From Fibrobacter sp. UWB13 (GTDB taxonomy: Bacteria > Fibrobacterota > Fibrobacteria > Fibrobacterales > Fibrobacteraceae): 64,000 bases of DNA. Positions 1,619 to 59,890 of this stretch are shown piece after piece; the stretch's first letter is position 1, and every line of letters starts with the position of its first letter. Position numbers and translations under genes: made by a program. The DNA is taken from contig NZ_FXAX01000001.1 in the NCBI RefSeq assembly GCF_900177805.1, positions 930,001 through 994,000 of the forward strand. Reading direction: 5' to 3'. The notes below the pieces were generated by a model that was given only the letters and a program-made list of their open reading frames with translations, was not told where the DNA came from and ran no database searches.

Positions 1619-3898
1619 CTACTCATCATCTTCGTCAAACATTTCATCATTTTCGGCAATCATATCATCATCGTTATCAAACATATCCTCTTTATCTATA
1701 ACATTTGACATATCCCACTGACTGATGTCGCCTTTGAATTTTGAATATTGAAACATGCCGCTCATTTCCGTTACGTTAGACACATTCCATTGACTGATAT
1801 CGCCATTAAATTCGGAATTCTGAAACATATTTTTCATATTCTTCACATGAGATACATCCCAATGGCTAATATCGCCATTGAACTTAGACCATTCAAACAT
1901 GCCATACATATCTTTCACATTTGACACATTCCATTTACTAATGTCACCGTTGAATTCAGAGACCCAAAACATACCCATCATATTAGTCACGTTTGATACA
2001 TCCCACCCGCTTATATCGCCATTGAATTCAGTGCTGCCAAACATATTGTTCATATCCGTCACGTTCGATACATTCCATCGACTGATATCGCCATTAAATT
2101 TTGAGCTGACAAAAAGCCCTTCCATGTTCGTTACATTTGACACATCCCATTGACTTATGTCACCATTGAAATCAGAACCGCGAAACATATCCGTCATATC
2201 CGTCACGTTCGATACATCCCACCCACTGATATCGCCATTAAACTTGTTTCTCAATCGAGCTTCTTTAGTCCATTCCCCATACTCCTCATCGAGGATTTCT
2301 TCGCCGTAATCATTAAAAATTCGCTTAAACCCAAACAACTTGCGCATATTCGTCACTTGCGACACGTCAATATAATTCAGGTCACATTGCAAGCCCTTTC
2401 TTTCAATCGCCGCATCAATTATCTCCATAAGATTATAACAGTCGGTAGCAACAACTTTCTGGTTCCGTTCATCTATCCCATACCAGGACGGATAGCAATT
2501 CGCCCATTCCGTAGCTGAATCTTTAAACATATCATCCTTAAGCGTCTCATTTGATACAATCCACTGACTAATATCTTTGTTAAACACGGAATTAACAAAC
2601 ATCATACTCATATCAGTCACATTCGATACATTCCACCGGCCAATATCACCATTGAATCGAGAATTGACAAACACACTCCTCATGTCTTTCACGCACGACA
2701 CATCCCACTGACTGATATCGCCATTAAAAGAAGAGTAAAAAAACATCGCTTTCATGTCTGTCACATGGTGGACATCCCATTGACTGATATCGCCATAAAA
2801 ATGACTTCTTTCTAAAGCTTTTCTCTGCGATTCATCCAATTCTTCTTCGGGAATGATTTCTTCCGTTTCATAATCAAATGGACAAAAACCAAACAGCCAA
2901 CTCATATCCGTTACCTGCGACACATCGATAAAATTCAAGTCACATTCAAGACCGTTTCTTTCAATTGCCGCATCAATAAGTTCGATAAGATGATCACGAT
3001 CCCGAGCAACAACCTTATGGACCTGTTCATCTTTTCCATACCAAGATGGATAGCGATTGTTTTTTTCAATACCAGAGTTGAAAAACATACTATCCTTAAC
3101 CGTCTCTTTTGAAACATTCCACTGACTGATATCACCTGCAAATAGGGAATCTCTAAACATTCCCCTCATATCTGTCACATTCGACACATCCCACCCACTA
3201 ATATCGCCATTGAATTGTGAATGAACAAACAGATATCTCATATTCGTCACTTGCGACACGTCAACATAATTCAAATCACACTCTGAGCCATTTCTTTTAA
3301 TTGCGGCTTTAATAATTTCAATAAGATTTTCGCGGTTCTCGGCAACAATCCCATTTACTCGCTTACCCTTATACCAGGACGGATAACACATCGCCCATTC
3401 CGTAGCAGATTCGTCAAACATACAGCCAAAATCTTTCACATTCGATACATTCCAATGACTGACATCGCCATTGAATGGAGAATGAACAAACATGCCTCTC
3501 ATATCTGTCACACTAGACACATTCCAACGGCTGATGTCCCCATTGAACTTAGAACAGCTAAACATACACGCCATGTACGTCACATTAGACACATCCCAAT
3601 GACTGATATCGCCATTGAATTTAGACCTCCAAAACATGCTTCCCATATCCGTCACGTTTGATACGTTCCACCCACTAATATCGCCATTAAACTGAGAGAG
3701 AGCAAACATTTCTCTCATGCTCCACACATTTGACACATCCCATTTACTAATGTCGCCGTTGAACGGAGAATGGCTAAACAATCCACTCATATCTGTCACT
3801 TGCGACACATCAATAAAATTCAAGTCGCATTCATAACCATTTTCGTCAATGGCTTTACGGATAAGTTCAATAAGATGTTCTTTGTTTTTGGCGATCAT
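1619..3898 (-). CDS. BspA/DUF285-type repeat protein, 759 aa
   Basis: Four modules in a row. Each starts with a roughly 37-residue cap (for example [13 protein letters not shown] then [15 protein letters not shown]) and continues with a variable number of 24-residue repeats of the pattern F-NGDIS-W-(D/N)VSNVTDM--MF. I count 5, 2, 4 and 8 repeats, nineteen in total. The linkers between modules share the words SATEWA, CYPSWY or YPSWYG. DUF285 repeats form leucine-rich-repeat-like solenoids and are mostly known from surface proteins, but this one has no signal peptide or lipobox and ends in an acidic tail ([19 protein letters not shown]), so it is probably cytoplasmic. The start is supported by AAGAGGA before the ATG. 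It follows the 3947-4837 gene by 48 bases. DNA repeats of about 72 bp make length change by recombination likely. Confidence 0.85.
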
Positions 3899-9615: not shown

Positions 9616-9703
9616 TAGTTATTAGAAGTTAGTCATTAGTGATTGATTTTAGAAATCATCTCTAATGACTACTGACCAATAACCATTAACTAAAGACTAG
9701 TCT
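9616..9703. repeat. Heptad-phase repeat array and hairpin at ppiD 3' end
   Basis: Degenerate 7-base units (ACTAGTC, TTTAGTT, AATGGTT, ATTGGTC, AGTAGTC on the minus strand). The array turns back on itself: AGTCATTAG (9631-9639) pairs with CTAATGACT (9662-9670), with further pairing inside. The TAG stop codon of ppiD (9697-9699) is part of the first heptad. Confidence 0.7.
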
Positions 9704-11628
9704 CTATAGAAGAGATCGAGGTTGCTCTGGACCGGCGTAGAAGCTTCGAGAGTCGTCACGTAGTCGTTGAAAGCAGTCATCACACCAAAGCGGTAGGAGT
9801 TGTCTACATCCTGCTTGATGGCGTCTTCGACTTCTTCGAGCTTCGGAGTCTTCTTGGAAACAACCTTGAGCATCACGGCACCGTTTTCAGCGACAACCGG
9901 AGCAGTCCATTCGCCAACCGTAGCCTTGCCAACAACCTTTGCGATCTGGGCATTGCCGTAGCCAAAGCCCGGAACAAAGCCATCGACAGAGGAATTCTTG
10001 GTTTCAAGTTCAACCTTTTCAATCTTGGTAGCAGTATCAGCCGGATTCCAAGCCTTGACCTGAGCAGCAACAGAGTTCAAGTAGATTTCGGCAGCCTTGC
10101 CAGCCTTCTGCTTGAGGAGAGTTTCCTTGATATCGCTGTAGTAGAGCGGGAGGCTACGTTCGCCAGCCTTGAAGGAACCAATCTTCTTGGCAATGACAAC
10201 CCACTTGTTGTTTCTGAGCACGCCAGAGATTTCGCTTTCTTCTTTCGGGAGGTTTTCGTTCGGCCATGCGAAAGAAGCGAGACCCTTGAGGTAACCAAAG
10301 GCTGCCATGTTGCCATCACGAGAAACCCATTCAGAAGTCTTGACTTCGAGACCGCGAGCCTGAGCTTCAGTCAGCAAGTCTGAGCCAGCATCAACATCCT
10401 TCTTGATGTTGGTGAGAATCTTTTCGAGGCTATCAATAGTGTTAGAAGAAGCCGTCACGGTGAGGAGGATGTGGCCAACCTTGACCTTTTCAACTTCACC
10501 CTTAGCGTTCTTCACATTGCCGTAAGACTTGATGATGTGGTAACCGAACTGAGAGCGGACCGGTTCAGAAATCTTGCCAGAGTCAAGAGCAAAAGCAACT
10601 TCTTCGAACGGCTTCACATAAGTGCCACGACCAACGAAATCATCGCTCAAGATACCGCCCTTTTCAGCACTGCCCGGATCTTCAGAAGAAACGCGAGCCA
10701 TGTCTTCGAAGGTCGTCGTAGAAGAGGAGTCGGTGAGCTGGTAGTAAAGCGTCATAGCGTATTCGCGGATGCTAGCGTCATCACCGGCGGTAGCTTCGAC
10801 CGGGATAGAAACATACTGGAACTGAGCAGCATCACTCTTAACAAAGAAGCTGTCGAGATGAGCGTTGAAGTAGCCAGCGACCATCACGCTATCCACGGAG
10901 TTGCTATCCACAACAAATGCAGAATTCGGGGCGACCGCCACCTGCAGTTCGTAATCCGTCATGCGGCGTTCGACACTCCACTTGGCTTCAAGAGAAGTCG
11001 GATGGACAGAAGCACCAACCAAGGTCTGGAGCTGACGAGCCGGAATGGTGTTGTTCTTCATTTCGTCTTCGAGCATGAGCATGGAGCTCCAGCGGTATGC
11101 AGCCGGAGTTTCAATCCAAGCATCGTAATCAGCCTTGTTGAAAGTCGTGTCCGTGAGGAACTTCGGCAAAGAGCTGAGGTATGCCTGAGAACGCTGGATC
11201 AAGTCATCCTGAGAAGTAGCCTGCTGCTGGATGGCATAGAGGCGAGCCTGAGCTTCCTGGACCAAGCGGGCACGAACGGCGTCGGAATTGCGCTTGAATT
11301 CGTTCTTGAGTTCGGCAACCGAGGCACTCAGTTCGGCCTTTTCGTACTGTTCGGCAAAAAGAGCCTGACGAACGAAGCTGGAGAACACCTGAGCGCGGAG
11401 CTGAGAGTACTGTTCGTCGTCCAAGTGCTGGTTCTGGTACTGATTCTGCACGATCATCTTCACGCGAGAATCAAAATCCGTATAAGAAATCTTGGTATCA
11501 TTGACAACGCCGATAGGATAGCTGCGGCCCTGGTCCGGAACACGGTCCATGGCGAGGAGACCGACGGCGATACCGGCGGCAAAGATCACAATTACCCACT
11601 TGGCTTTTTCATTAATCCACGTTAACAT
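9697..11628 (-). CDS. ppiD: PpiD/SurA-type peptidyl-prolyl isomerase
   Basis: 643 residues. The ATG at 11628 follows GGAG; the longer frame is not needed. One N-terminal membrane anchor (KWVIVIFAAGIAVGLLAMD, about residues 8-26) places the body in the periplasm. A SurA-like N-terminal chaperone domain with long helices covers about 45-250. The parvulin domain lies around 310-410: SSEDPGSAEKGGILSDDF, PFEEVAFALDSGKISEPV and FGYHIIKSYG are its conserved strands. A second, shorter domain follows. PpiD assists folding of proteins leaving the Sec translocon, fitting a genome full of outer-membrane proteins. The gene is isolated between tRNA-Glu and the divergent nadB. Confidence 0.88.
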   Translation of the reverse strand: MLTWINEKAKWVIVIFAAGIAVGLLAMDRVPDQGRSYPIGVVNDTKISYTDFDSRVKMIVQNQYQNQHLDDEQYSQLRAQVFSSFVRQALFAEQYEKAELSASVAELKNEFKRNSDAVRARLVQEAQARLYAIQQQATSQDDLIQRSQAYLSSLPKFLTDTTFNKADYDAWIETPAAYRWSSMLMLEDEMKNNTIPARQLQTLVGASVHPTSLEAKWSVERRMTDYELQVAVAPNSAFVVDSNSVDSVMVAGYFNAHLDSFFVKSDAAQFQYVSIPVEATAGDDASIREYAMTLYYQLTDSSSTTTFEDMARVSSEDPGSAEKGGILSDDFVGRGTYVKPFEEVAFALDSGKISEPVRSQFGYHIIKSYGNVKNAKGEVEKVKVGHILLTVTASSNTIDSLEKILTNIKKDVDAGSDLLTEAQARGLEVKTSEWVSRDGNMAAFGYLKGLASFAWPNENLPKEESEISGVLRNNKWVVIAKKIGSFKAGERSLPLYYSDIKETLLKQKAGKAAEIYLNSVAAQVKAWNPADTATKIEKVELETKNSSVDGFVPGFGYGNAQIAKVVGKATVGEWTAPVVAENGAVMLKVVSKKTPKLEEVEDAIKQDVDNSYRFGVMTAFNDYVTTLEASTPVQSNLDLFYRD

Positions 11629-16695: not shown

Positions 16696-18123
16696 TTATC
16701 GATCTTCTAAAAGTTGTTTGACGTAACATGCATATTCCTTTAAGCTAGGATCTCTCGCGCCCATCAGCAAAATCGTGTCGCCTGGTTCTGCATATTCTAG
16801 CATTTTCTTGGCGCACTCGTTGCGGTCAGCAATGTAAATAGCCTCACAACCCTTGAGAATCAAGTCATCCGCGAGGTCGCCTGCGCTAATGTCACGCGTG
16901 ACCGTTCCGCCAGCATAATAGATTTCGCTGAAGAACATCACATCGTTCTTGCGGTCAAAATCCATATCCATCGGGCGAAGCGTCTTGGCGATAAAGTCCA
17001 CCAAGTCCTTGCGCAAGAATCGCGTCGGACCAAAGCCATGCGGCTGGAACCAAGCAATCACGCGGCCTTCGGTAAAGTCCTGGGCGCTCTTGATGCTCGC
17101 GGCAATTTTCGCCGGATTGTGGGCAAAGTCATCGACAAGCGTCACGCCGTTGAATGTCCCGAGAATCTGGTGACGGCGGAACACGCCCGGGAAAGACGAA
17201 AGCGCATCGGCACATGTGTGGAGCGAAACGCCCGCGCGAAGTGCGGCGGCTGTGGCGGCCAAAGCATTTTCCATATTGTGCTTGCCCGGCAGCGGAATTT
17301 CGAACTTCACAAGTTCATTGCCATGACGCACGCGGAACTGAATATGCGTTCCGACAGACTTAAAGTCAATTCCCTGAACGCTCACATAGCTTTCATAGCC
17401 AAAGTCAAATTCTCGACCGGCGCTAAACTTCTTTGCGAGCGGGTGCGCATCGTTCACAATCAAGATGTGACCTGCGCTCAAAACGTTCTGGCTAAACTTC
17501 AAGAAAATTTGTTCGAGCTCGGAGATTTCCTTGTGGTCTTTGTCGATGTTCAAAATGACGCCGATTTCCGGTTCATAGCGAACAAGTGTTCCATCGCTTT
17601 CATCGACTTCGGCAACGAGCCATTCGCCCTTGCCACTCACAGCATTTCCAATCTTGCCCTGAGCCTGCAAGTTCACGAGGCCAGCCCCCGTCATCACAGA
17701 TGGCTGGAGTCCCGCATATTCGAGAATGTGGTAAACCATCGCGGTCACCGTTGACTTTCCGCTCGTACCGCTAATCGCAATCGTGCGCGCTTCCTTGGAA
17801 ATCTTTGCGAGCATTTCGCTGCGGTGCATCACTGGGACGCCAAGTTCCTTCGCACGCTTCAAATCCGGATTCGAATCTTCGATAGCGGTGCTCACCACGA
17901 CGGCGGTAAGGCCTTCGACAACGCCGGAACCATCCTGCGCAAAGCACTTGATTCCGCAATCTTCGAGTTGGCTCATGACAAGCGGCTTTTCGGCATTTCC
18001 GTTCAGGAACTCGCCGAACTGACGGTCGCTACCGCTCACAGCAACGCCCTTGCCCACCAAATACTGCGCGATGGCACTCATGCCCACGCCAGCAACACCG
18101 ATAAAGAAGTAAGAATTAGTCAT
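16696..18123 (-). CDS. MurC-like Mur ligase
   Basis: 475 residues with the three Mur ligase domains: N-terminal Rossmann fold with GVAGVGMSAIAQYL (about 8-21), central ATPase with the P-loop SGTSGKSTVTAM (about 117-128) and VAEVDESDG, and a C-terminal domain with HNPAKI and FQPHGFGPTRFL. MurC adds L-alanine to UDP-N-acetylmuramate, and Mpl adds a recycled tripeptide to it. Here the P-loop reads GTSGKST where MurC and Mpl normally have GTHGKT(T/S), and the C-terminal motif QPHGFGPTRFL differs from the usual QPHRY-RT, so it may be a paralogue with another substrate; I leave the symbol open. There is no ribosome-binding site, because the start codon lies inside a heptad repeat array. Its 3' end is duplicated at 16510-16586. 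Confidence 0.8.
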   Translation of the reverse strand: MTNSYFFIGVAGVGMSAIAQYLVGKGVAVSGSDRQFGEFLNGNAEKPLVMSQLEDCGIKCFAQDGSGVVEGLTAVVVSTAIEDSNPDLKRAKELGVPVMHRSEMLAKISKEARTIAISGTSGKSTVTAMVYHILEYAGLQPSVMTGAGLVNLQAQGKIGNAVSGKGEWLVAEVDESDGTLVRYEPEIGVILNIDKDHKEISELEQIFLKFSQNVLSAGHILIVNDAHPLAKKFSAGREFDFGYESYVSVQGIDFKSVGTHIQFRVRHGNELVKFEIPLPGKHNMENALAATAAALRAGVSLHTCADALSSFPGVFRRHQILGTFNGVTLVDDFAHNPAKIAASIKSAQDFTEGRVIAWFQPHGFGPTRFLRKDLVDFIAKTLRPMDMDFDRKNDVMFFSEIYYAGGTVTRDISAGDLADDLILKGCEAIYIADRNECAKKMLEYAEPGDTILLMGARDPSLKEYACYVKQLLEDR

Positions 18124-18155
18124 TGGTCACTAGTCTTTAGTCAATAGTTATTAGC
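18115..18155. repeat. Heptad repeat array spanning the MurC-like start codon
   Basis: Plus strand in strict 7-base phase: ATTAGTC, ATTGGTC, ACTAGTC, TTTAGTC, AATAGTT, ATTAGC. The CAT at 18121-18123, which is the start codon of the leftward gene, is made by the junction of the first two heptads, so the first three codons (Met-Thr-Asn) are repeat-derived. Confidence 0.75.
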
Positions 18156-18218
18156 AATTCGAGACTTTACTGGATTCTTCGACTCCGCTACGCTTCGCTC
18201 AGAATGGCTCGTTTTCAT

Positions 18219-19570: not shown

Positions 19571-19645
19571 AGGTCATTAGTAGTTAGTCATTAGTTATTA
19601 GTTGAATAATCAAGCTTAAAAAACTAATGACTATTGACTAAGTCT
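19571..19645. repeat. Heptad repeat array forming a hairpin at lspA 3' end
   Basis: TTAGTCA, TTAGTTA, TTAGTTG units (19585-19605) face the reverse units AACTAATGACTATTGACTAA (19621-19640), so the array can fold on itself. The TAG stop of lspA (19638-19640, minus) is one of these units. Confidence 0.65.
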
Positions 19646-24497: not shown

Positions 24498-24663
24498 AAC
24501 AATGTCCTTGTTTAAAATTTTTGCGTGGAAAATATAGGAAAGTCGGAAGTCGGAAGTAGGAAATATACAGAGAAATTCATGTAAAAATAGTAGGTATGAA
24601 AAACGTGCTCTAGAACACACAAAACACCCCTATAATACAATTCGGACTATAATTTTACAGAAA

Positions 24664-41199: not shown

Positions 41200-41233
41200 G
41201 ACAAACCAATGACGAACGACCTTTGACTAACTA
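41200..41233. repeat. Heptad-phase repeat upstream of the thioesterase
   Basis: CAATGAC, GAACGAC, CTTTGAC, TAACTAC follow one another in 7-base phase. It is a more degenerate member of the TGACTAA-type array family. Confidence 0.5.
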
Positions 41234-41325
41234 CCAAAATATTACGGTTTTTATTGCAATTATTCGCATAACATTCCCATTTTATGTTATTTTTCTTTGC
41301 GTTAAAACATTAAGTGAGAAAATCT

Positions 41326-43542: not shown

Positions 43543-43560
43543 TAGCGCATTCGCGCAGTT

Positions 43561-43585
43561 CTTAGTCACTAGTCATTAGTTACTA
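43561..43585. repeat. Heptad repeat array after glgB
   Basis: TTAGTCA, CTAGTCA, TTAGTTA, CTAG in strict 7-base phase, just upstream of the glgB terminator. Confidence 0.65.
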
Positions 43586-43595
43586 GAATTTCATT

Positions 43596-43630
43596 AAAAA
43601 GTCCCTGAATTTATTTCAGGGATTTTTTTT
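43596..43630. terminator. Terminator between glgB and a converging barrel gene
   Basis: AAAAAGTCCCTGAA pairs with TTCAGGGATTTTT, ending in a run of eight T on the plus strand and A-derived T run on the minus strand; bidirectional. Confidence 0.88.
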
Positions 43631-43632
43631 GC

Positions 43633-44247
43633 TTAATTCAATGTTACCGAGAACATGAGCATCACGGATGACGAACTAAAAACGCCATCGTCATCGGACC
43701 AGTATTTGCCATAATTATACGCGATGGACGCACCCAAAGCCAAGTGCTCACTCACCCACCAATCCTTGCCAAGATCGACATCAAAGCTAAAAGCCTTGAG
43801 TCCTGTATTCCCTGCATACTTGTGGCAATCAAGCTCATATCCGGTAACCCCTAGAGAGCCACCCAAAAACACATTATTCCATTGGGGGATATAATACGTT
43901 ACGCCTGCGCCTAAGTAGACGGAGCTCAGCACATAAAAATCATGGTCTACGTACGTCGGGAGCCCTTCACGTGCTTCGCGGAAATTAGAATACATCACAT
44001 AGCCCAAATTGGCATGCAACGCCAAGTCCTGCACAATGTAATAGCCCAGCTTGCCATGCAGTTTCATCCCAAAGCCATCAGCAATCAGAGATTCTGTGCC
44101 ATCCGCATTTTCAAAGGAGGCGTAGCCCAGGCCCACAGAAGCACTTGCAAATAGCCCGTTATGCGTATAGGGAGTCGAAAGCGGTCCAGCCCAAACAGCC
44201 GAAGCCATCAACACAACGAGCGACAATAAAGCAACGAGGCGATTCAT
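43633..44247 (-). CDS. Outer-membrane beta-barrel protein, OmpW/OmpA-barrel-like
   Basis: 204 residues. Signal peptide MNRLVALLSLVVLMASAVWA. The mature part is a small eight-strand-type barrel: SASVGLGYASFE, GKLGYYIVQDLALHANLGYV, VYLGAGVTYYIP, LFLGGSLGVTGYE-like NVFLGGSLGVTGYEL and LALGASIAYNYGKYW, ending MLMFSVTLN. Function unknown. There is no ribosome-binding site before the ATG. Its 5' region holds the tandem hairpin element downstream of xerD. Confidence 0.7.
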   Translation of the reverse strand: MNRLVALLSLVVLMASAVWAGPLSTPYTHNGLFASASVGLGYASFENADGTESLIADGFGMKLHGKLGYYIVQDLALHANLGYVMYSNFREAREGLPTYVDHDFYVLSSVYLGAGVTYYIPQWNNVFLGGSLGVTGYELDCHKYAGNTGLKAFSFDVDLGKDWWVSEHLALGASIAYNYGKYWSDDDGVFSSSSVMLMFSVTLN

Positions 44248-44281: not shown

Positions 44282-44479
44282 GCCCGTGCGGTCTCTTGTG
44301 AGCCGAAAGAGCCTTGTATTAACAAGGCTTGTCGGCGAGAGCACGGGCCTAAAGCGCTTTACCTTCGACTCTTGCCTGTGCGGTCTCTTGTGAGCCGAAA
44401 GAGCCTTGTATTAACAAGGCTTGTCGGCGAGAGCACAGGCCTAAAGCGCTTTACCTTCGACTCTTGCCTGTGCGGTCTC
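44282..44479 (-). repeat. 92-bp tandem hairpin element downstream of xerD
   Basis: Two full units with period 92 (start points 44282 and 44374), plus a partial third made by the end of xerD itself. Each unit is a nested hairpin on the minus strand: GCCYGTGC, TCTC, GCCG, stem AGCCTTGT, loop TAAT, stem ACAAGGCT, CGGC, GAGA, GCACRGGC. Between units lie 25 bases identical to the last codons of xerD. In the left unit both outer arms carry the change (GCCCGTGC with GCACGGGC) relative to the right unit (GCCTGTGC with GCACAGGC), so pairing is kept. Confidence 0.85.
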
Positions 44480-45355
44480 CCTCGGATGGAAGCTACGATG
44501 TTCAACCTTGATAAAGTCTTTATCGACGTGCGTGTAAATCTGCGTGGTACTGATGTCTGCATGCCCGAGAAGTTCCTGCAAAACGCGCAAGTCCATGCCA
44601 GCCTCCAGGCAGTGCGTCGCAAAGCTATGGCGGAACGTATGCGGTGAGACTTGCTTGCTCAAATGCATCGTATGCTGCTGCACAATTTTCCACGCCCCCA
44701 TGCGAGTCATAGGCTTCCCTCGCGAATTGAGAATAATATTGTCAGCCGTCGGGTGCGTTAAGGGGCGCCCTTCATCAATCCATGCGCGGAGATTATCCTT
44801 CGCCTTGCTCCCGAGCGGTACAAGGCGCTGCTTATTGCCCTTGCCAATCGGCAAAAGCCATTCGTTCTCAAGATCGATTTGCGAGAGCTTTATACTAAGC
44901 GCTTCCGAAATGCGGAGCCCTCCACTGTACATGAGCTCAATCAGAGCCGTATCACGGAGTGGATTCCGACCATTTGCGGCACTTTCAAAAACGCTATCGA
45001 TTTCTTCGCGGGTCAGGTACTGCGGCAGGTAATGCCCGAGCTTCGGAGTCGCAAGCATCGATTCCGTGCTGTAATCGTACTCGCCCTGGTTTTGCATGTA
45101 CTTGAGGAACCCGCGCAAGCTCGAGAAATGCCTCGCAACCGATGTCGGAGAATACTCATCCTGCCCCGCCGTAAGCGTCAGGAACTCGTCCAGCTTTTCG
45201 GGCTTCAGCTCCTTAAGGTCAATGCCGTTATCGTCTAGCCAGGCTATAAAATGTCTCAAATCCTCCTGGTAACTTTGAATAGTTACCGGAGACAGGCTTC
45301 TTTCCACCCCGAGGTGCGAAAGAAAAGCGTCCAGACGGTTAGAATTGAGACTCAT
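44441..45355 (-). CDS. xerD: Tyrosine recombinase XerD/XerC
   Basis: 304 residues. N-terminal SAM-like core-binding domain (1-90) and catalytic domain with the full set: MYSGGLRISEAL (Arg), GKGNKQRLVP (Lys), SPHTFRHSFATH (His-Arg), LQELLGHADISTTQIYTHVD (His and the Tyr nucleophile). It resolves chromosome dimers at dif. The usual family ends at or soon after HPR; here FHPRE is followed by TAQARVEGKAL, and these last codons are the segment repeated in the downstream hairpin array, so the tail appears to be element-derived. XerD is favoured over XerC from ADISTTQIYTHV. Confidence 0.85.
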   Translation of the reverse strand: MSLNSNRLDAFLSHLGVERSLSPVTIQSYQEDLRHFIAWLDDNGIDLKELKPEKLDEFLTLTAGQDEYSPTSVARHFSSLRGFLKYMQNQGEYDYSTESMLATPKLGHYLPQYLTREEIDSVFESAANGRNPLRDTALIELMYSGGLRISEALSIKLSQIDLENEWLLPIGKGNKQRLVPLGSKAKDNLRAWIDEGRPLTHPTADNIILNSRGKPMTRMGAWKIVQQHTMHLSKQVSPHTFRHSFATHCLEAGMDLRVLQELLGHADISTTQIYTHVDKDFIKVEHRSFHPRETAQARVEGKAL

Positions 45356-45439: not shown

Positions 45440-45512
<73 letters not shown>

Positions 45513-45642
45513 CTAGATACCAAACCGAAAGGCAAGGTATTGCAAATACAAAAGCGTCAGACAAAGCTAAGCGTCTAACGAACTTTGAAACTGCGGCTTT
45601 TGATTTTTGCAAAAAGACATTGCTGAAAGGCGACCAAATCAT
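45513..45642 (+). repeat. tRNA-Lys spacer, short form
   Basis: 130-base spacer that is almost the same as the next one (45716-45867) but lacks a block of about 22 bases. It contains a small hairpin (ATACC...GGTAT). The repeat of tRNA plus spacer shows the cluster arose by tandem duplication. Confidence 0.8.
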
Positions 45643-45715
<73 letters not shown>

Positions 45716-45867
45716 CTAAATACCAAACCGAAAGGCAAGGTATTGCAAATACAAAAGCGTCAGACAAAGCTAAGCGTTTTTGAAAGCGAAAGTGGAATCT
45801 AACGAACTTTGAAACTGCGACTTTTGATTTTTGCAAAGACATAGCCAAAAGGCGACCTAAGAATTTT
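45716..45867 (+). repeat. tRNA-Lys spacer, long form
   Basis: 152-base second spacer. Compared with the first it has an extra stretch of about 22 bases (TTTTTGAAAGCGAAAGTGGA part) between AAGCG and TCTAACG, and several substitutions toward the 3' end. Confidence 0.8.
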
Positions 45868-45940
<73 letters not shown>

Positions 45941-51475: not shown

Positions 51476-51745
51476 TTTAGTCCTTTGAGTTAAAACTTTG
51501 GGGCACAATCAGCCCACGATGTGTGAGAAATATAATAACGAAAACTTACTTTGATTGGAGAAAATCATCAAAAAAGCATACACAATCGTCTCATCTGTAT
51601 CCATTAAAATCGATTGTAAAATCCGAATTTTTGACCATTTTTCACAAATCGAAGTCCGTAACTATAAGCAATTCAATAAGTTACAAAAGTGTGGTGGGTA
51701 AAAAACGTGACTAAAATCGCACGAAAAGAATTTACAATGTAGTTG
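51476..51745. other. Intergenic region without a supported gene
   Basis: AT-rich. On the minus strand TTATTATATTTC near 51530 could be the -10 of the DsbA-like gene. A 63-codon frame at 51523-51714 lacks a ribosome site and protein-like composition. Nothing else seen. Confidence 0.5.
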
Positions 51746-51805
51746 TTAGTCAATGGTCAGTGGTCATTGGTCAGTGGTCAATAGTAATTGGTCATTAGTC
51801 AATGG
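51746..51805. repeat. Clean heptad repeat array, 8.5 units
   Basis: TTAGTCA, ATGGTCA, GTGGTCA, TTGGTCA, GTGGTCA, ATAGTAA, TTGGTCA, TTAGTCA, ATGG in unbroken 7-base phase; consensus N-T-R-GTCA. It is the longest array in the window. Confidence 0.85.
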
Positions 51806-51860
51806 TATAAGTAACAATAGACAAATGTTATTGTCGCAAAGCTATCATCGAAAGACATTT

Positions 51861-51897
51861 AACTAATGACAAAAGGCGAACGACCAAGAACCAAACA
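51861..51897. repeat. Reverse-oriented heptad array upstream of metXW
   Basis: TAACTAA, TGACAAA, AGGCGAA, CGACCAA, GAACCAA in 7-base phase, the reverse-strand form of the array at 51746. The two arrays face each other across 55 bases. Confidence 0.6.
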
Positions 51898-51911: not shown

Positions 51912-53714
51912 ATGCATATGAGTGAATATTTGCATAAATCGTTTGGTCCCGTAATCCCCAAGGATTTCAACAAGGATTATGGTGAACAGGGCTTTTTGCT
52001 GGAAAGCGGCAAGACGCTCCCTGCCTTGACCATCCGTTACGAAACGTACGGCACATTGAACGCCGCCGGCGATAACGCCGTGTGGGTTTGTTCGCCGTTG
52101 ACCGCTGATGCGCACGCCGCCGGCTGGTACACCGAAAATGACAAGAAGCCCGGCTGGTGGGATGAACTCATCGGACCTGGCAAGGCTATCGATACAGACC
52201 GATTCTTTGTAGTTTGCAGTAACATCCTCGGCGGATGCAAGGGCTCTACTGGCCCAGCAACGATCAACCCGCGCACGGGCAAGCCCTACGGCAGCACCTT
52301 CCCTACCATTACGATAGGCGACATGGTACACGCCCAAAAGGAACTTGCAGACGGTCTCGGCATCAAGGAATTCTACAGCGTCATCGGCGGATCCATGGGC
52401 GGATTCCAGGCGATGAAATGGGCAATTTACTACCCGGAACAGGTAAAGCGCATCATCGTGATTGCTAGCTCGCCCAGATTCTCGAGCCAGGCGCTCGGCT
52501 TTGAAGTGGTGGCCCGCGATGTCATCACGCAAGACCCGAACTTCCACGGTGGCGACTATTACGAAGAAGGTAAGACAAGACCGGACATCGGCCTTGCGAA
52601 CGCCCGCAAGCTTGCGCACATCACATACCTCTCTGCAGTGGGCATGGAGAAGAAGTTCAAGCGCGCCCAGGACCAGGAAAACAGAAGCCACGCCGTCACT
52701 TACTCGACGCCATATGACTTGAACCTCCCAATTGAAAGCTACTTACGTTATCAGGGAACGAAGTTCGTCGATCGCTTTGATGCGAACAGCTATTTGCACA
52801 TTGCACATGCGACCGACGCATTCGACCTCGAAACGGAATACGGCAGCATCGAAAACGCCTTCAAGGGCATCAAGGCTGAAGTCCTGAACGTGAACCTTTC
52901 GACCGACTGGCTTTTCCCGCCGCACGAGAGCCGCCGCATTACAAGCGCACTCCTCAACACCGGCAAGACCGTGACGAGCCTCGAACTCGACACGCAATTT
53001 GGCCATGACGGATTTTTGATTGAAGTGGGTGAACTCGGCAAGGCTGTGGGCCGTTTCCTCGATTCAAAGATTATCCCGCAGAACGGAACGCAGGCAGTGC
53101 CTGTATTCCACGACCAGAGCGACTTCCAGCGCATCAGCAAGCTCGTGAAGGAAGGTAGCCATGTACTCGACCTCGGTTGCGGCAGTGGCGACTTGCTAGA
53201 TTACCTTATCCGCAAGAAAAACGTCACGGGCTTTGGCATCGAAAAGAACATCAAGGGAATTCTAGACTGCCTCGAAAAAGACGTACAAGTTATCCAGCGC
53301 GACTTGGATGAAAGTGGTCTCACGGACATCAAGGACGGAAGTTTCGACTACGCGATTATCAACCGCACGATTCAGGAAATCCGCGACCCGGTGGCCCTTT
53401 TGAACGAACTTTTGCGCGTTGCAAAGCAGGTCATTGTGACGTTCCCGAATTTCGGCCACTGGTCTGCCCGCGGAAGCCTGATGCTCCACGGTCGTATGCC
53501 GATTTCGAAGGAACTCCCCTACGAATGGTACGACACGCCGAACATTCGCGTGCTTACGCTCAAGGACTTCTATACGTTGTGTAACAAGGAAGGATTCAAG
53601 ATTGAAAACCTGCACTTCCAGAATGAACACAAGATAAGCAAGTTCCTGACCGCCATTGGTCTCCCGAACTTCGGCGCCGAACACGTCATCGCTACGATTT
53701 CGAAGAAGGTTTAG
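51912..53714 (+). CDS. MetX-MetW fusion: homoserine O-acetyltransferase with C-terminal methyltransferase domain
   Basis: 600 residues. N-terminal part (1 to about 385) is MetX, an alpha/beta hydrolase: CSNILGGCKGSTGPATINP, VIGGSMGGFQAM with nucleophile Ser161, LSTDWLFPP with the catalytic Asp and QFGHDGFLIE with the catalytic His. C-terminal part (about 400-600) is MetW: SHVLDLGCGSGDLLDYL, AIINRTIQEIRDP and VTFPNFGHWSARGSL. MetX acetylates homoserine for methionine synthesis; MetW is often encoded directly after metX and is needed for full activity in some proteobacteria. Here the stop between them is gone. No ribosome site; two in-frame ATGs (51912, 51918) are both possible. yicC starts two bases after the stop. 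Confidence 0.92.
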   Translation: MHMSEYLHKSFGPVIPKDFNKDYGEQGFLLESGKTLPALTIRYETYGTLNAAGDNAVWVCSPLTADAHAAGWYTENDKKPGWWDELIGPGKAIDTDRFFVVCSNILGGCKGSTGPATINPRTGKPYGSTFPTITIGDMVHAQKELADGLGIKEFYSVIGGSMGGFQAMKWAIYYPEQVKRIIVIASSPRFSSQALGFEVVARDVITQDPNFHGGDYYEEGKTRPDIGLANARKLAHITYLSAVGMEKKFKRAQDQENRSHAVTYSTPYDLNLPIESYLRYQGTKFVDRFDANSYLHIAHATDAFDLETEYGSIENAFKGIKAEVLNVNLSTDWLFPPHESRRITSALLNTGKTVTSLELDTQFGHDGFLIEVGELGKAVGRFLDSKIIPQNGTQAVPVFHDQSDFQRISKLVKEGSHVLDLGCGSGDLLDYLIRKKNVTGFGIEKNIKGILDCLEKDVQVIQRDLDESGLTDIKDGSFDYAIINRTIQEIRDPVALLNELLRVAKQVIVTFPNFGHWSARGSLMLHGRMPISKELPYEWYDTPNIRVLTLKDFYTLCNKEGFKIENLHFQNEHKISKFLTAIGLPNFGAEHVIATISKKV

Positions 53715-55697: not shown

Positions 55698-58600
55698 TTA
55701 CCTCGAAATCAACAGTTTTTGTTTTTTAGTCCAAGTTTGAGTTTTAGAGCCGGAAGTCTTGACTTCGTTCCGTACTACATAGTGGTACAAGCCATTAGCA
55801 AGCAAACGACCGTAATTGTCCTTGCCATTCCAGTGCGTGACACCGGACTTGGCATCCTTAATGACCTTAACGAGTCTGCCATGCTGGTTGTAAATGAATA
55901 TCGTTACCCTCGAATCGGATTCAGGAGCGAGATTCTTGAAGTAGAATGTCGTGCCTTTTTTGCCGACCGGATTCGGGACGTTGAACACATCCGTGAGCCC
56001 GACCTGCAAAGACTCCGTAATCTGGAGATTGACGTACTTTATAGAGAGATTTCCAAGCACATCCAAGGCGCGCACCCTGAACGTATAGGTTCCCGGCGGG
56101 AACGCTTCCGTAGTCAACGTTTTGCGGGCAACAGCGCGTTTCGAAGACTGTTCCAGGAATGGAGCCGGATGGTACGGGGATTCCACACCGATGATATCAA
56201 ACGTGATACCTTCATCTGCCTGTTCGCGGTAATCCAAAGCGGTTTCATCTTCTATAACGACCTGCAAGCATGCCGGAGTCTGCATCTTGACAAACTGGTT
56301 ATTGGAGAACGAAGACGAAGAGCCCGCATAGCACGACTGGATACTAATCGACGGAGGCGTTTTGTCGTCCAGCGAGTCCGCATAATTCGAAATACCCGCA
56401 ATCTTAATATTCTGTTCGAGAGAGCGACCGATAGCCACATCATTTGAAGAATAAGCCCAAGCACGCAACTCCGCAAGAGTATCACCGATATTGAGCTTTT
56501 TCGGAGTCACAAATTCGGTTTCGAAACGGCCGCCGACAACTGGAATAACTTCGGAATAAATAAGAGCGCCATCGTAAAGAACAGGCGTCGTCACATCATT
56601 GACGGACGTAAATTTCTTTTCAAATCGACCTTCACGAAGCGTCAAGGAAATATTGCCCGAAGACATCCCCGATACCGTTCCGGACAACTTCATCTTGTCC
56701 AGAGCCATGATAGAATCCACCGGGTTATCAAATTTAATTTTCTTCTCGGCGAGCGGCATACGGATGACCGGTTCGCCAATATAGACAAAGTGTTCTGCAT
56801 TGTACATGCAATCTTTGTCGCACGCACCGCTATAAACGCTGTCTTTCGCCTTCATATAGGCAACCCCTAGGTAAATACCATTTTCGCCCAGTGCGCGACG
56901 AATAAAGTTATGGGCAAAGACTTCGTTCGAGCCAGCATACGTTTCGCGAGCAGCACCAATAGCGGCAATAGCACCAACATCCGAAGCCATCACAAAGGTT
57001 TCCGACAAAGACCTCGTATCGCCTTCATCAAAGCGCCCAACAGTGCAGGCAAAAGAATTCAGCACAGTGTACTTTTTCTTGTTGGATAGTTTCGACACGT
57101 ACGAATTTTTAAGCAAGCCTTCTGAAGCCCAAGCCACCTTTGAACCATGTCCAAAATACGTTGTCATCAAGGCGCCCTGGTTCATGACATTCAAGAAGTC
57201 ATTCATGGCATCCATTTTCTGCCCCGCCGCATCGAACACATAATCCAAGAGGTAAATCTTCTTGAGGTTCAAACGGAAACCCTGCGAAGCCGCAACTGCA
57301 TCGATAGCTCTTGCCAAAGTTTCTTGGTAACCCGTATGCTCGATAATATCTTTCTCAACAGAATTGCGATCGTCATCGGCAGCAAGCAAGAGCGTCGAAC
57401 GCCATTCACTTTGATCAAACCAATTCACTTCGTCGTAATCGCGAGCCTTACTGACGTAGCCATAGAATTCATCCACAGAAGAAACAGGCAAACGCCCTAA
57501 AGCCAAATCCAAATCGTACATTTTACCGCTACGCACGACTTCACCGGAATCGAGAGCGGCAAAGAAATCTTCCGTCACAGAAGATTCCTTTTCAAACGGA
57601 GGCATATAGTTCTTGCCATACTTGGCGTTGAACCCACGGTAGTCGTAATGACCGGAACCCGCCAACAACACAAAGCGCAAGTCCGGACAAACGCTACGGG
57701 CATAAGCGATATAGTTTCTAATCGCAATCGGCGAAAGCCTGCCTGCAGTATAATGCCTATAAATATTTTCGACAGCGACAACAGCCGTTTGAAGAGGGCT
57801 TGCAGACTTGTCACTAGAACGGAACACCGCCAAAGATTCGGCAGGCGCCAGGAATTCTTCGGGCGTAATGATGAGGTATTCCGTCTTCGAAGAAATTTGC
57901 GAAAGCTTCTGCACAACGTTCTGCGAGGCAAGCGGAATCCCCTCAATAGAGAGCGTCTTACGTCGATCCGCATTGCGGCGGTCCTTGCCATTCAAAAGCA
58001 AATAGCGGACATCATCATTGTAACCGATGCTATCAACAGCAACCCCGTTCGTAACCTTCAAGTACCCTACGGGAACATTGTCCTTGAACTTTACCAAGCG
58101 GAGATTTTCATTTTTGCCCACCGGGATGCGGACAATGCCAGTAGCAAAGCCCGGCAACATCCATTCCGCAGAATCTATAGAAACCGCAGTCGGATCCCAC
58201 TGGTAAGCGACAGAATAGCCATCAAAGCGGTCGTACTGGTAATCGTTGGGGTATATTGTCAATTCATATTCGTTCCCGGACTCTTTCAGGGAATAGACTT
58301 GCATTGCAAAATTGCAGCCCGGCAAAATAGTACCATCATTCCAGTAATCTTCTTGCGCTTTTAATCTCGAATGGAATTCGTCATTTACCCTCATTCCAAA
58401 ATGAATGAACTTAATTCTATCGGCATAACTAAAAGCTGTAGAGAATTTATAGCTTGTAGACTGGTCGACATCTTTAGAAGAACTCAAAGAACGGTACGGG
58501 AAAAATGAAACCGCAACAAAACCTTTACCGCCAGAAACAAGTCCCGGCAATTCCGTAGTCGGCATGTGCAAGCCCAGTTCCGAAGAGGAAACTACAGTCG

Positions 58601-59804
58601 TATCTTTTCGAGCATGCCAAACCCAGAACCATTCCTTACCGGTCGTCTTTTCCCAGTCAATGGACTTTCCATAATAAGTATCGCGCAACAGCACGTCTTT
58701 TTCGCCACGGACGTAACGGAGCCATTCAATATCCTTCGGCGTAGATTTCGGTTCGGAGAGTGTTTCTAGGCGGAGCCCCTTCCCCACTTGCTTGTATCCC
58801 AAAATAAAATGCTGGGTCGAGGAATACGGCGAATACGAATGGAAATACGCCATGCTCGTTCTAGGAGAGCTTAGCGGTTCTGCATCGATTCGTTTCCAGA
58901 AAGCGCTGCCATAGCCAACGAAATAAAGGGAGTCGCCATCATCGAAAATGCCGTTGGAATTGCGGTCATCGACTTTGATGGGCAGTTCAAGCAGCTGGTT
59001 CGGGTTACGGAGCTTGGAACCCGGAGCCATGTCCGCAAGCGTATCCGGCGAGACACCATACAGGCAGAGCTTGTCAACAGAAATTCCATCGAGCTCACTT
59101 TGGCGCACAACCTTCAAAAGCGAATTGCGGATTTGCTTAAAGTCGACCGCATACATGCCGTCTTCGGCAAATGTCGCCATGTTGTCGTCACCCACCACAA
59201 ATTCGGCGAGCTGCACCATATCATCAATTTCAGAGCGGGCTTCCTTGCGCAAGACTGCATTTGATCGCCCTGCAATACCAAATTGGGAGGCTCCCTTGGT
59301 ATTTTCCACACGCATGAGCGCACGGGCACCAGGATTTCGACCGCTGGCAGTAGCCGATGCAAACTTGACATTCAAGCGGAAATTCTCACGTAAAGCGATG
59401 GAGGCGCCCTGCTTCACATAAAGAGGTACCTGCACATCGATCATCCACACATTGTCCTTGAGGAACGGCGAAGACATCGTGATGGACTGTTGCTTTATCA
59501 AAACGGATTTGCAAAGCGATGAACCTAGCGGAGTAAGCTTGCTGTTCGTCACAGAGACCGAAGGCTTATCACCAGACGGCAGCGCCAAGCGATAATTGCG
59601 GAATGGAGCCCCATCCTTAAAAAAGGCATTTTCGGGATGGAATTGCTTTCCCGAACCGTCTTCACAAGACACTTCAAACGAGCTGAGGACTTCGTCGTCT
59701 AAAATAAACTGTTTCCTGGAATCTTCAATGACAGAAGACGCCAAGCTAGAAACTGCTGCACAGGCAACAAATAGAATCTGAAATTTTTTGATGATAGACT
59801 TCAC
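55698..59804 (-). CDS. PorU-like C25 (gingipain-type) peptidase, probable T9SS sortase
   Basis: 1368 residues. I choose the GTG at 59804: it starts a clean signal peptide (KSIIKKFQILFVACAAVSSLA), while the longer frame runs through a REP-like repeat. Domains: a beta-rich N-terminal prodomain region, then the C25 peptidase domain around 700-1050 with RLPVSSVDEFYGYVSKARDY, the His886-Gly in TTYFGHGSKVAW and Cys920 in VLNSFACTVGRFDEGDT, followed by Ig-like domains and a C-terminal FlgD-type Ig domain (VTHWNGKDNYGRLLANGLYH). In Bacteroidetes PorU has this length and layout and cleaves T9SS C-terminal domains at the cell surface. Second-to-last gene of a four-gene leftward run. Confidence 0.82.
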   Translation of the reverse strand: MKSIIKKFQILFVACAAVSSLASSVIEDSRKQFILDDEVLSSFEVSCEDGSGKQFHPENAFFKDGAPFRNYRLALPSGDKPSVSVTNSKLTPLGSSLCKSVLIKQQSITMSSPFLKDNVWMIDVQVPLYVKQGASIALRENFRLNVKFASATASGRNPGARALMRVENTKGASQFGIAGRSNAVLRKEARSEIDDMVQLAEFVVGDDNMATFAEDGMYAVDFKQIRNSLLKVVRQSELDGISVDKLCLYGVSPDTLADMAPGSKLRNPNQLLELPIKVDDRNSNGIFDDGDSLYFVGYGSAFWKRIDAEPLSSPRTSMAYFHSYSPYSSTQHFILGYKQVGKGLRLETLSEPKSTPKDIEWLRYVRGEKDVLLRDTYYGKSIDWEKTTGKEWFWVWHARKDTTVVSSSELGLHMPTTELPGLVSGGKGFVAVSFFPYRSLSSSKDVDQSTSYKFSTAFSYADRIKFIHFGMRVNDEFHSRLKAQEDYWNDGTILPGCNFAMQVYSLKESGNEYELTIYPNDYQYDRFDGYSVAYQWDPTAVSIDSAEWMLPGFATGIVRIPVGKNENLRLVKFKDNVPVGYLKVTNGVAVDSIGYNDDVRYLLLNGKDRRNADRRKTLSIEGIPLASQNVVQKLSQISSKTEYLIITPEEFLAPAESLAVFRSSDKSASPLQTAVVAVENIYRHYTAGRLSPIAIRNYIAYARSVCPDLRFVLLAGSGHYDYRGFNAKYGKNYMPPFEKESSVTEDFFAALDSGEVVRSGKMYDLDLALGRLPVSSVDEFYGYVSKARDYDEVNWFDQSEWRSTLLLAADDDRNSVEKDIIEHTGYQETLARAIDAVAASQGFRLNLKKIYLLDYVFDAAGQKMDAMNDFLNVMNQGALMTTYFGHGSKVAWASEGLLKNSYVSKLSNKKKYTVLNSFACTVGRFDEGDTRSLSETFVMASDVGAIAAIGAARETYAGSNEVFAHNFIRRALGENGIYLGVAYMKAKDSVYSGACDKDCMYNAEHFVYIGEPVIRMPLAEKKIKFDNPVDSIMALDKMKLSGTVSGMSSGNISLTLREGRFEKKFTSVNDVTTPVLYDGALIYSEVIPVVGGRFETEFVTPKKLNIGDTLAELRAWAYSSNDVAIGRSLEQNIKIAGISNYADSLDDKTPPSISIQSCYAGSSSSFSNNQFVKMQTPACLQVVIEDETALDYREQADEGITFDIIGVESPYHPAPFLEQSSKRAVARKTLTTEAFPPGTYTFRVRALDVLGNLSIKYVNLQITESLQVGLTDVFNVPNPVGKKGTTFYFKNLAPESDSRVTIFIYNQHGRLVKVIKDAKSGVTHWNGKDNYGRLLANGLYHYVVRNEVKTSGSKTQTWTKKQKLLISR

Positions 59805-59831
59805 GAATTCTAAAATAGTAAAAAACAGAAA

Positions 59832-59862
59832 TGGAAATGCCCGCTCAGCGGCGGGCATGACA
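59832..59862. repeat. REP-like hairpin with CATGAC suffix
   Basis: AATGCCCGC, loop, GCGGGCATGACA. Lies between the PorU-like start and the next gene upstream, inside the frame extension that I reject. Confidence 0.7.
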
Positions 59863-59890
59863 AATGGTAACATCTTTTTGGGTGTTAAAA

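Follow-up and report, generated by a model that had tools for sequence, protein, structure and literature searches.

Seven-base tandem repeats fill part of the intergenic region between a DsbA/thioredoxin-like gene and metX-metW in Fibrobacter sp. UWB13, and the locus raises the question of what such arrays are, how widely they occur and what could build or maintain them. The window analyzed here is a stretch of 64 kb (C1:930001-994000) from a genome of 3.80 Mb in 10 contigs, and positions given without a contig prefix refer to this window. Matches to the Fib_succ_major domain, 82 in number, agree with the genus Fibrobacter.

Heptad arrays in the 64-kb window

The focal element (51740-51894) has a left arm of about nine heptads, (TTRGTCA)n, on the plus strand at 51740-51806, which scored 78.8 bits with a periodic profile and was reported at period 7 by TRF. 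Its right arm, (TGACYAA)n at 51851-51894, is degenerate and weak, with a periodic profile score of 27.1 bits on the minus strand. Self-match across 51741-51805 was 45/65 at lag 7 and 40/65 at lag 14, while other lags gave 4-20/65. The neighboring genes are divergent, with the DsbA/thioredoxin-like gene on the minus strand and metX-metW on the plus strand, and the metX start lies 17 bp past the end of the right arm (51894). The whole element has a predicted RNA fold of -35.6 kcal/mol (z -3.1); the central core described below is absent from it. We would like to note that 51912-53714 (+) is a single open frame matching both MetX (residues 25-385) and MetW (403-589), an apparent MetX-MetW fusion.

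All seven arrays listed in the first-pass annotation were recovered at or near the places it gave. The pair at 9616-9710 is convergent, with a left arm at 9616-9645 (+) and a right arm at 9662-9710 (-) that overlaps, through the TAG of a heptad, the stop codon of a minus-strand gene at 9697-11628. Similarly, a left arm at 19572-19603 (+) faces a right arm at 19619-19641 (-) that provides the TAG stop of an lspA-like gene (minus strand, end 19638), and this pair has a predicted DNA fold of -12.4 kcal/mol (z -5.2). Single arms were found at 18115-18154 (+, about 5.7 heptads), at 41204-41239 (-) upstream of glgB, and at 43557-43586 (+), where a sense arm lies 14 bp past the glgB stop codon and is followed at about 43599-43630 by a hairpin that has a T run and resembles a terminator. 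An array of a second heptad family, AAGTCGG/AAGTAGG, at 24540-24565 (+) had been missed at first pass. When both strands of the window were scored against four copies of TTRGTCA, 27 positions reached at least 21/28, and none in ten second-order Markov shuffles exceeded 20. At gathering scores, Rfam returned only tRNAs for the window, and the heptad elements match no known structured RNA.

Several other features of the window were recorded. Other extragenic palindromes (TTCGACTCCGCTACGCTTCGCTCAGAATGG; GTCATTCCCG...CGGGAATC; GTCACCCCGG...CCGGGGTC) lie at 18160-18210 and, in the genome G105, at C1:493758-493926, in intergenic sites of the kinds that heptad elements also occupy. The gene at 1619-3898 (-) encodes a 759-aa protein of PARCEL-type repeats (NCBIfam Mbov_0838, Liste_lipo_26) and carries DNA tandem repeats of 72 and 216 bp. 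Between the genes at 43633-44247 and 44441-45355 is a 92-bp tandem repeat (44282-44479, 2.2 copies, 98% identity). A row of three tRNA genes with equal covariance scores occupies 45440-45940 (+), and 55698-59873 (-) encodes a PorU-like type IX secretion sortase of 1391 aa.

Abundance and periodicity across the genome

Three tandem copies of TTRGTCA with at most 3 mismatches matched the whole genome 369 times, compared with 4 matches for the reversed pattern. Array statistics were taken from an 864-kb sample (23% of the genome, with 22% of its sequence non-coding), in which genes were called with a simple coding-potential caller and gene starts are approximate. The periodic profile found 78 arrays in this sample, 77 of them outside genes, in keeping with the non-coding character proposed at first pass; the heptad profile reads T(0.66) T(0.96) A/G G(0.98) T(0.93) C/T A(0.66). 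A reversed-control profile gave 7 matches, mostly resembling true arrays read backwards.

A consensus-free test applied locally to intergenic regions of this genome detected period 7 in 37/342, and periods 5, 6, 8, 9 and 10 in 1, 0, 0, 0 and 1, respectively. Consensus-free segments numbered 94 at period 7 and 0-7 at periods 5, 6, 8 and 9. The first-pass annotation had described a strict period of 7 and proposed that an excess of it should appear elsewhere in the genome by autocorrelation of intergenic DNA. The strict period and the excess are both borne out by the local test, whereas autocorrelation of pooled intergenic DNA showed no period-7 signal, because the arrays form too small a share of that DNA for the pooled check to see them. 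The genome has more than 100 small non-coding intergenic elements made of 7-base repeats, and the original observation was correct and broader than its author stated.

Arm architecture and the central hairpin

The arrays are polarized arms, and the elements consist of one or two such arms, which at a slightly lower threshold form 54 clusters in the 864-kb sample. Head-to-head pairs able to fold had been remarked upon at first pass; all 22 pairs of neighboring opposite-strand arms converge and none diverge, their spacing is mostly 21-31 bp, and their stems fold in predictions. In each arm the G-richer strand, read 5' to 3', leads from the gene boundary toward the intergenic middle. A separate observation concerns single arms, which in contig coordinates are 24 plus and 6 minus, an imbalance that the sign of GC skew does not explain.

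A third to half of the arm pairs contain a central GC hairpin with a covarying stem. Its core reads TTTATAATC-GCGGC-NNN-GCCGC-CAAACTTTAAA, with a 3-nt loop, and generalizes across elements to TTTATAATC-GCNNC-NNN-GNNGC-CAAACTTTAAA; all 9 of the 9 intergenic core matches in the 864-kb sample adjoin heptad arrays. For 34 distinct cores, picked by flanking bases and arms and kept if at least 4/5 stem pairs formed, 98% of stem cells pair, a percentage that is partly selected; sliding the partner abolishes the pairing signal, and the stems show 18 double-sided changes compared with 5.1 in shuffles. Around the core, in this genome and its relatives (n=47), the sequence is G-rich on the left and C-rich on the right in 30 cases, the reverse in 0, and mixed in the rest.

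Complementarity between the arms within one element is lower than between arms taken from different elements, with 0/5000 permutations as low, and the negative sign of this test suggests the removal of perfect palindromes. Fold-back copying of an arm from its partner was ruled out, as same-element arms are less alike than different-element arms. Within the heptad, positions T2, G4 and T5 change less between orthologs (16/386) than the other positions (47/515). Judged from these sequence comparisons, the covarying core and the slower change at T2, G4 and T5 suggest that there may be selection for a structure or a binder.

Position relative to genes

Outer arm ends that face a stop codon lie at most 20 bp from it in 32/37 cases, with a median distance of 1 bp, and those that face starts are within 20 bp in 9/38. 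Inner arm ends of the same genome were near stops in 2/18 cases and near starts in 0/14. For consensus-free arrays of the relatives, 41/50 outer ends and 8/86 inner ends lie at stops, and among the matches listed for named genomes of other phyla the counts are 54/79 and 7/67. Arms contact the stop codon itself in 26/46 cases, where uniform placement would give 9.8. Genes touching a sense arm use a TAG stop in 17/32 cases versus 129/531 (p 7e-4), and in about a dozen genes touching sense arms the TAG of the heptad itself serves as the stop codon.

Clusters are flanked by the different gene orientations in about the proportions seen for all intergenic regions, and therefore the elements show no preference for 3' ends and no clear avoidance of divergent promoters; divergent gene pairs flank 9/54 clusters and 79/367 regions.

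Turnover at orthologous sites

Among relatives about 87-90% identical to this genome, and with small ortholog numbers, the same intergenic site may hold a like array, nothing, or another heptad family, and the word is sometimes switched beside genes that are 97-99% identical. At C1:1200538, UWB13 has TTAGTCA arms with the core, G064 has AGTAGGA arms, and G105 has nothing. At C1:787911, where the gene end is 98-99% identical, UWB13, G064 and G067 carry three different sequences right after the stop, two of the TTRGTYA word type and one of TTAGAAC, and at C1:756858 the array has been exchanged for another, with the stop codon on one side of it and the terminator on the other both conserved. Gene tips are also overwritten. 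Comparing array lengths between relatives, as had been proposed at first pass, gave a difference of 14 bp, exactly two whole heptads, at C1:1299537. G105 has a clean empty site for a 98-bp element, with no target duplication visible at this one site. Additionally, G064 has an array at 9/11 sites where UWB13 has one, compared with 8/51 elsewhere.

Arrays in relatives and in other phyla

Within the genus, TTRGTCA matches range from 0 to about 190 per genome, and relatives carry other heptads in the same layout, including AGACGAG and, around the same core, TTAGGNN, AGTAGGA, AATTCGG, GATAATT, ATTACGA, GTTRTGA and more. G004, of the same phylum and another family (f7), has 25 matches to a TTRGTMA variant; no other genome surveyed beyond the genus was array-rich. 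Among the matches listed, named genomes with the TTRGTCA word belong to cyanobacteria, Bacteroidetes (Mucilaginibacter), Planctomycetes and others. The first-pass annotation had compared the arrays in form to cyanobacterial heptamer repeats, and the likeness extends to the word, as TTRGTCA itself occurs in Nostoc, Tychonema, Microcoleus and others among these matches. Arm pairs in cyanobacteria and others among the matches listed are convergent in 41 cases and divergent in 2. Unrelated bacteria share the layout, some of them with other 7-letter words.

Possible origins of the elements

Our preferred reading, to which we give a probability of roughly 0.42, is that the elements are non-coding, fast-turning-over intergenic sequences in which 7-base repeats form either a single arm or two; the sites would persist, other arrays would be the source from which their arms are rewritten, and selection would act at gene borders. 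Its starting points, the architecture, polarity, stop-codon contact, presence or absence, and differing heptad types at orthologous sites, were observed directly. The rewriting would draw mainly on arrays elsewhere in the genome, through recombination or template switching, while the intergenic site stays in place, and slippage would alter the number of heptads. Spread would halt at coding ends and promoters, where selection would remove worse outcomes, and near-perfect palindromes would probably be removed as well. Less firmly, the elements may lack gene-specific function. The preferred reading is favored by heptads that resemble the genome pool (likeness inside arrays of 4.861/7, compared with 4.823 +- 0.041 for random pool draws, p 0.175), by stop contact, by word switching and by the background-like orientation context; core covariation and the slower change at T2, G4 and T5 count against it. 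No direct event of donor-to-recipient copying between arrays was traced. Given the polarity, either the rewriting itself or a protein reading the repeats should be directional. Several phyla have one polarity with heptads that are unrelated, and unbiased recombination or template switching is therefore insufficient by itself.

Since polarity needs a directional step, the main rival is a mobile element with polar binding sites. Here the elements would be non-autonomous (foldback or MITE-like), the heptads tandem binding sites of a trans-acting transposase, the convergent arms inverted ends, and the heptad families the property of different transposases. The clean empty site in G105, the fixed inward polarity of both arms, the conserved, covarying central hairpin and the patchy numbers across species all fit this explanation, but we consider it unlikely, as arm length and outer ends vary with no conserved terminus seen, the single clean site examined shows no target duplication, types replace one another at the same place, and gene tips are overwritten. 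A Y1/RAYT transposase (PF01797) is also absent from the array-rich genomes G067, G077, G102, G103 and G105, and RAYT/Y1 was rejected as a candidate for want of association with array-rich genomes. Placement of the sense arm right after stop codons, predicted folding of the stems and slower change of the core heptad positions could instead point to an element selected for a function at transcript ends or gene borders, either an RNA hairpin protecting or terminating the mRNA or an insulating DNA site. We regard this as distinctly doubtful: divergent pairs, which have no 3' end, carry about their share of elements, ordinary terminators come after several arrays, an element's two arms do not match, many relatives lack arrays at the same genes, and in Xanthomonas Rehm et al. 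identified no role in gene regulation (PMC4692102). Intrinsic terminators were rejected on the background-like orientation context and the separate T-run hairpins after several arrays. Rho sites (YC every 7 nt) are not a general feature, being absent from TTAGTTA and other families, and neither are all-frame stop-codon arrays, as TTGGTCA and AATTCGG lack sense stops.

A replication-slippage origin had been suggested at first pass, and in its full form it would make the arrays ordinary microsatellites, with period 7 favored by polymerase geometry and with polarity and position as by-products. Slippage alone would give internally uniform arrays, a property of the cyanobacterial arrays (5.95 versus 5.39 shuffled) but not of those in this genome, and it therefore fits poorly. 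As sole cause it was ruled out, because heptads within an array are as unlike as those of the pool. The two-heptad difference at C1:1299537 agrees with slippage as a contributor; the consensus common to more than 100 sites, the inward polarity and the switching of heptads at one site, together with the missing homogeneity, speak against it as the main source, and we consider the ordinary-microsatellite account improbable. Even less probable in our view is a directional repeat-writing system, present in several phyla, that would lay strain-specific 7-nt words inward from gene borders and rewrite sites, with a strain-dependent template or binding protein determining the word. Finally, telomere-like end healing, in which a 7-nt template would add heptads to both 3' ends of a broken region before joining, would yield G-rich arms that point inward and are independent of each other, and would also account for type switching and the overwriting of gene tips. 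Nevertheless, it appears highly improbable: Ku is absent in 41 genus genomes, the RVT_1 reverse transcriptase is absent in UWB13 and in the array-rich G064 and G103, and the conserved central hairpin is left unexplained.

Relation to known heptamer repeats

Heptamer repeats have been reported piecemeal in Calothrix, Helicobacter, Xanthomonas, Nostoc and Beggiatoa, with separate explanations offered: G-quadruplexes, translational regulation and slippage. Mazel et al. are said to have described STRRs in 1990 as tandem heptanucleotides of heterocystous cyanobacteria; original STRR words aside, the Fibrobacter arrays are alike in form in being tandem heptanucleotides. The cyanobacteria among the matches listed have the TTRGTCA word and the same arrangement as Fibrobacter, which does not imply common descent.

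The closest match is the mostly intergenic heptamers GGGAATC / GGGGA(C/T)T that Rehm et al. (2015; PMC4692102) described in Xanthomonas and Nostoc. In Xanthomonas these form about 180 arrays with 70-75 convergent pairs per genome and lie near stop codons when on the coding strand and upstream of genes when on the non-coding one, and their length and sequence differ between close relatives (PMC4692102); a polymerase-geometry hypothesis for period 7 is cited in the same work (PMC4692102). They resemble the Fibrobacter elements in period 7, mostly intergenic site, convergence and stop proximity, but the word differs, divergent regions are under-represented for them and not clearly so in Fibrobacter, and the central covarying hairpin and same-site heptad switching set the Fibrobacter elements apart. 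TTRGTYA has no run of three G, and therefore forms no G-quadruplex as proposed for the Xanthomonas/Nostoc word. MacGregor (2015) described TAACTGA intergenic direct repeats, patchy over phyla, in Beggiatoaceae, cyanobacteria and Bacteroidetes, mostly as 2-6 perfect copies that lie immediately before start codons and point at them, with one inverted case in 170 (PMC4679880). TAACTGA is not a rotation or complement of TTRGTYA, and it neither supports nor contradicts a G-rich polarity because, with one C and one G, it is not strongly skewed. REP/BIME sequences are likewise palindromic repeats outside genes, in some cases with a GC stem-loop, and are tied to RAYT transposases (PMC3733652, PMC3116915); in contrast, the Fibrobacter elements have 7-bp tandem arms, no GTAG/CGTC tag was seen in them, and they show no Y1 transposase link. 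The literature searched, with most subscription journals outside it, held no paper on such repeats in Fibrobacter.

Convergent, stop-hugging heptamers were already described in Xanthomonas (PMC4692102), and the Fibrobacter elements therefore belong to a known kind. They extend this convergent and still unexplained kind with non-quadruplex words, a covarying core and word switching. One layout, with the G-richer strand inward from the gene border, stop-codon contact and convergent pairs, is common to the Fibrobacter words, to TTRGTCA in cyanobacteria and Mucilaginibacter and, by report, to GGGAATC in Xanthomonas. As this layout is common to different words, word-specific explanations are unlikely and one general process is indicated; our results imply that a polarized, fast-working and so far unexplained process builds or maintains the elements. 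Fibrobacter, where one and the same site can carry different words in close strains, is a good test ground for it.
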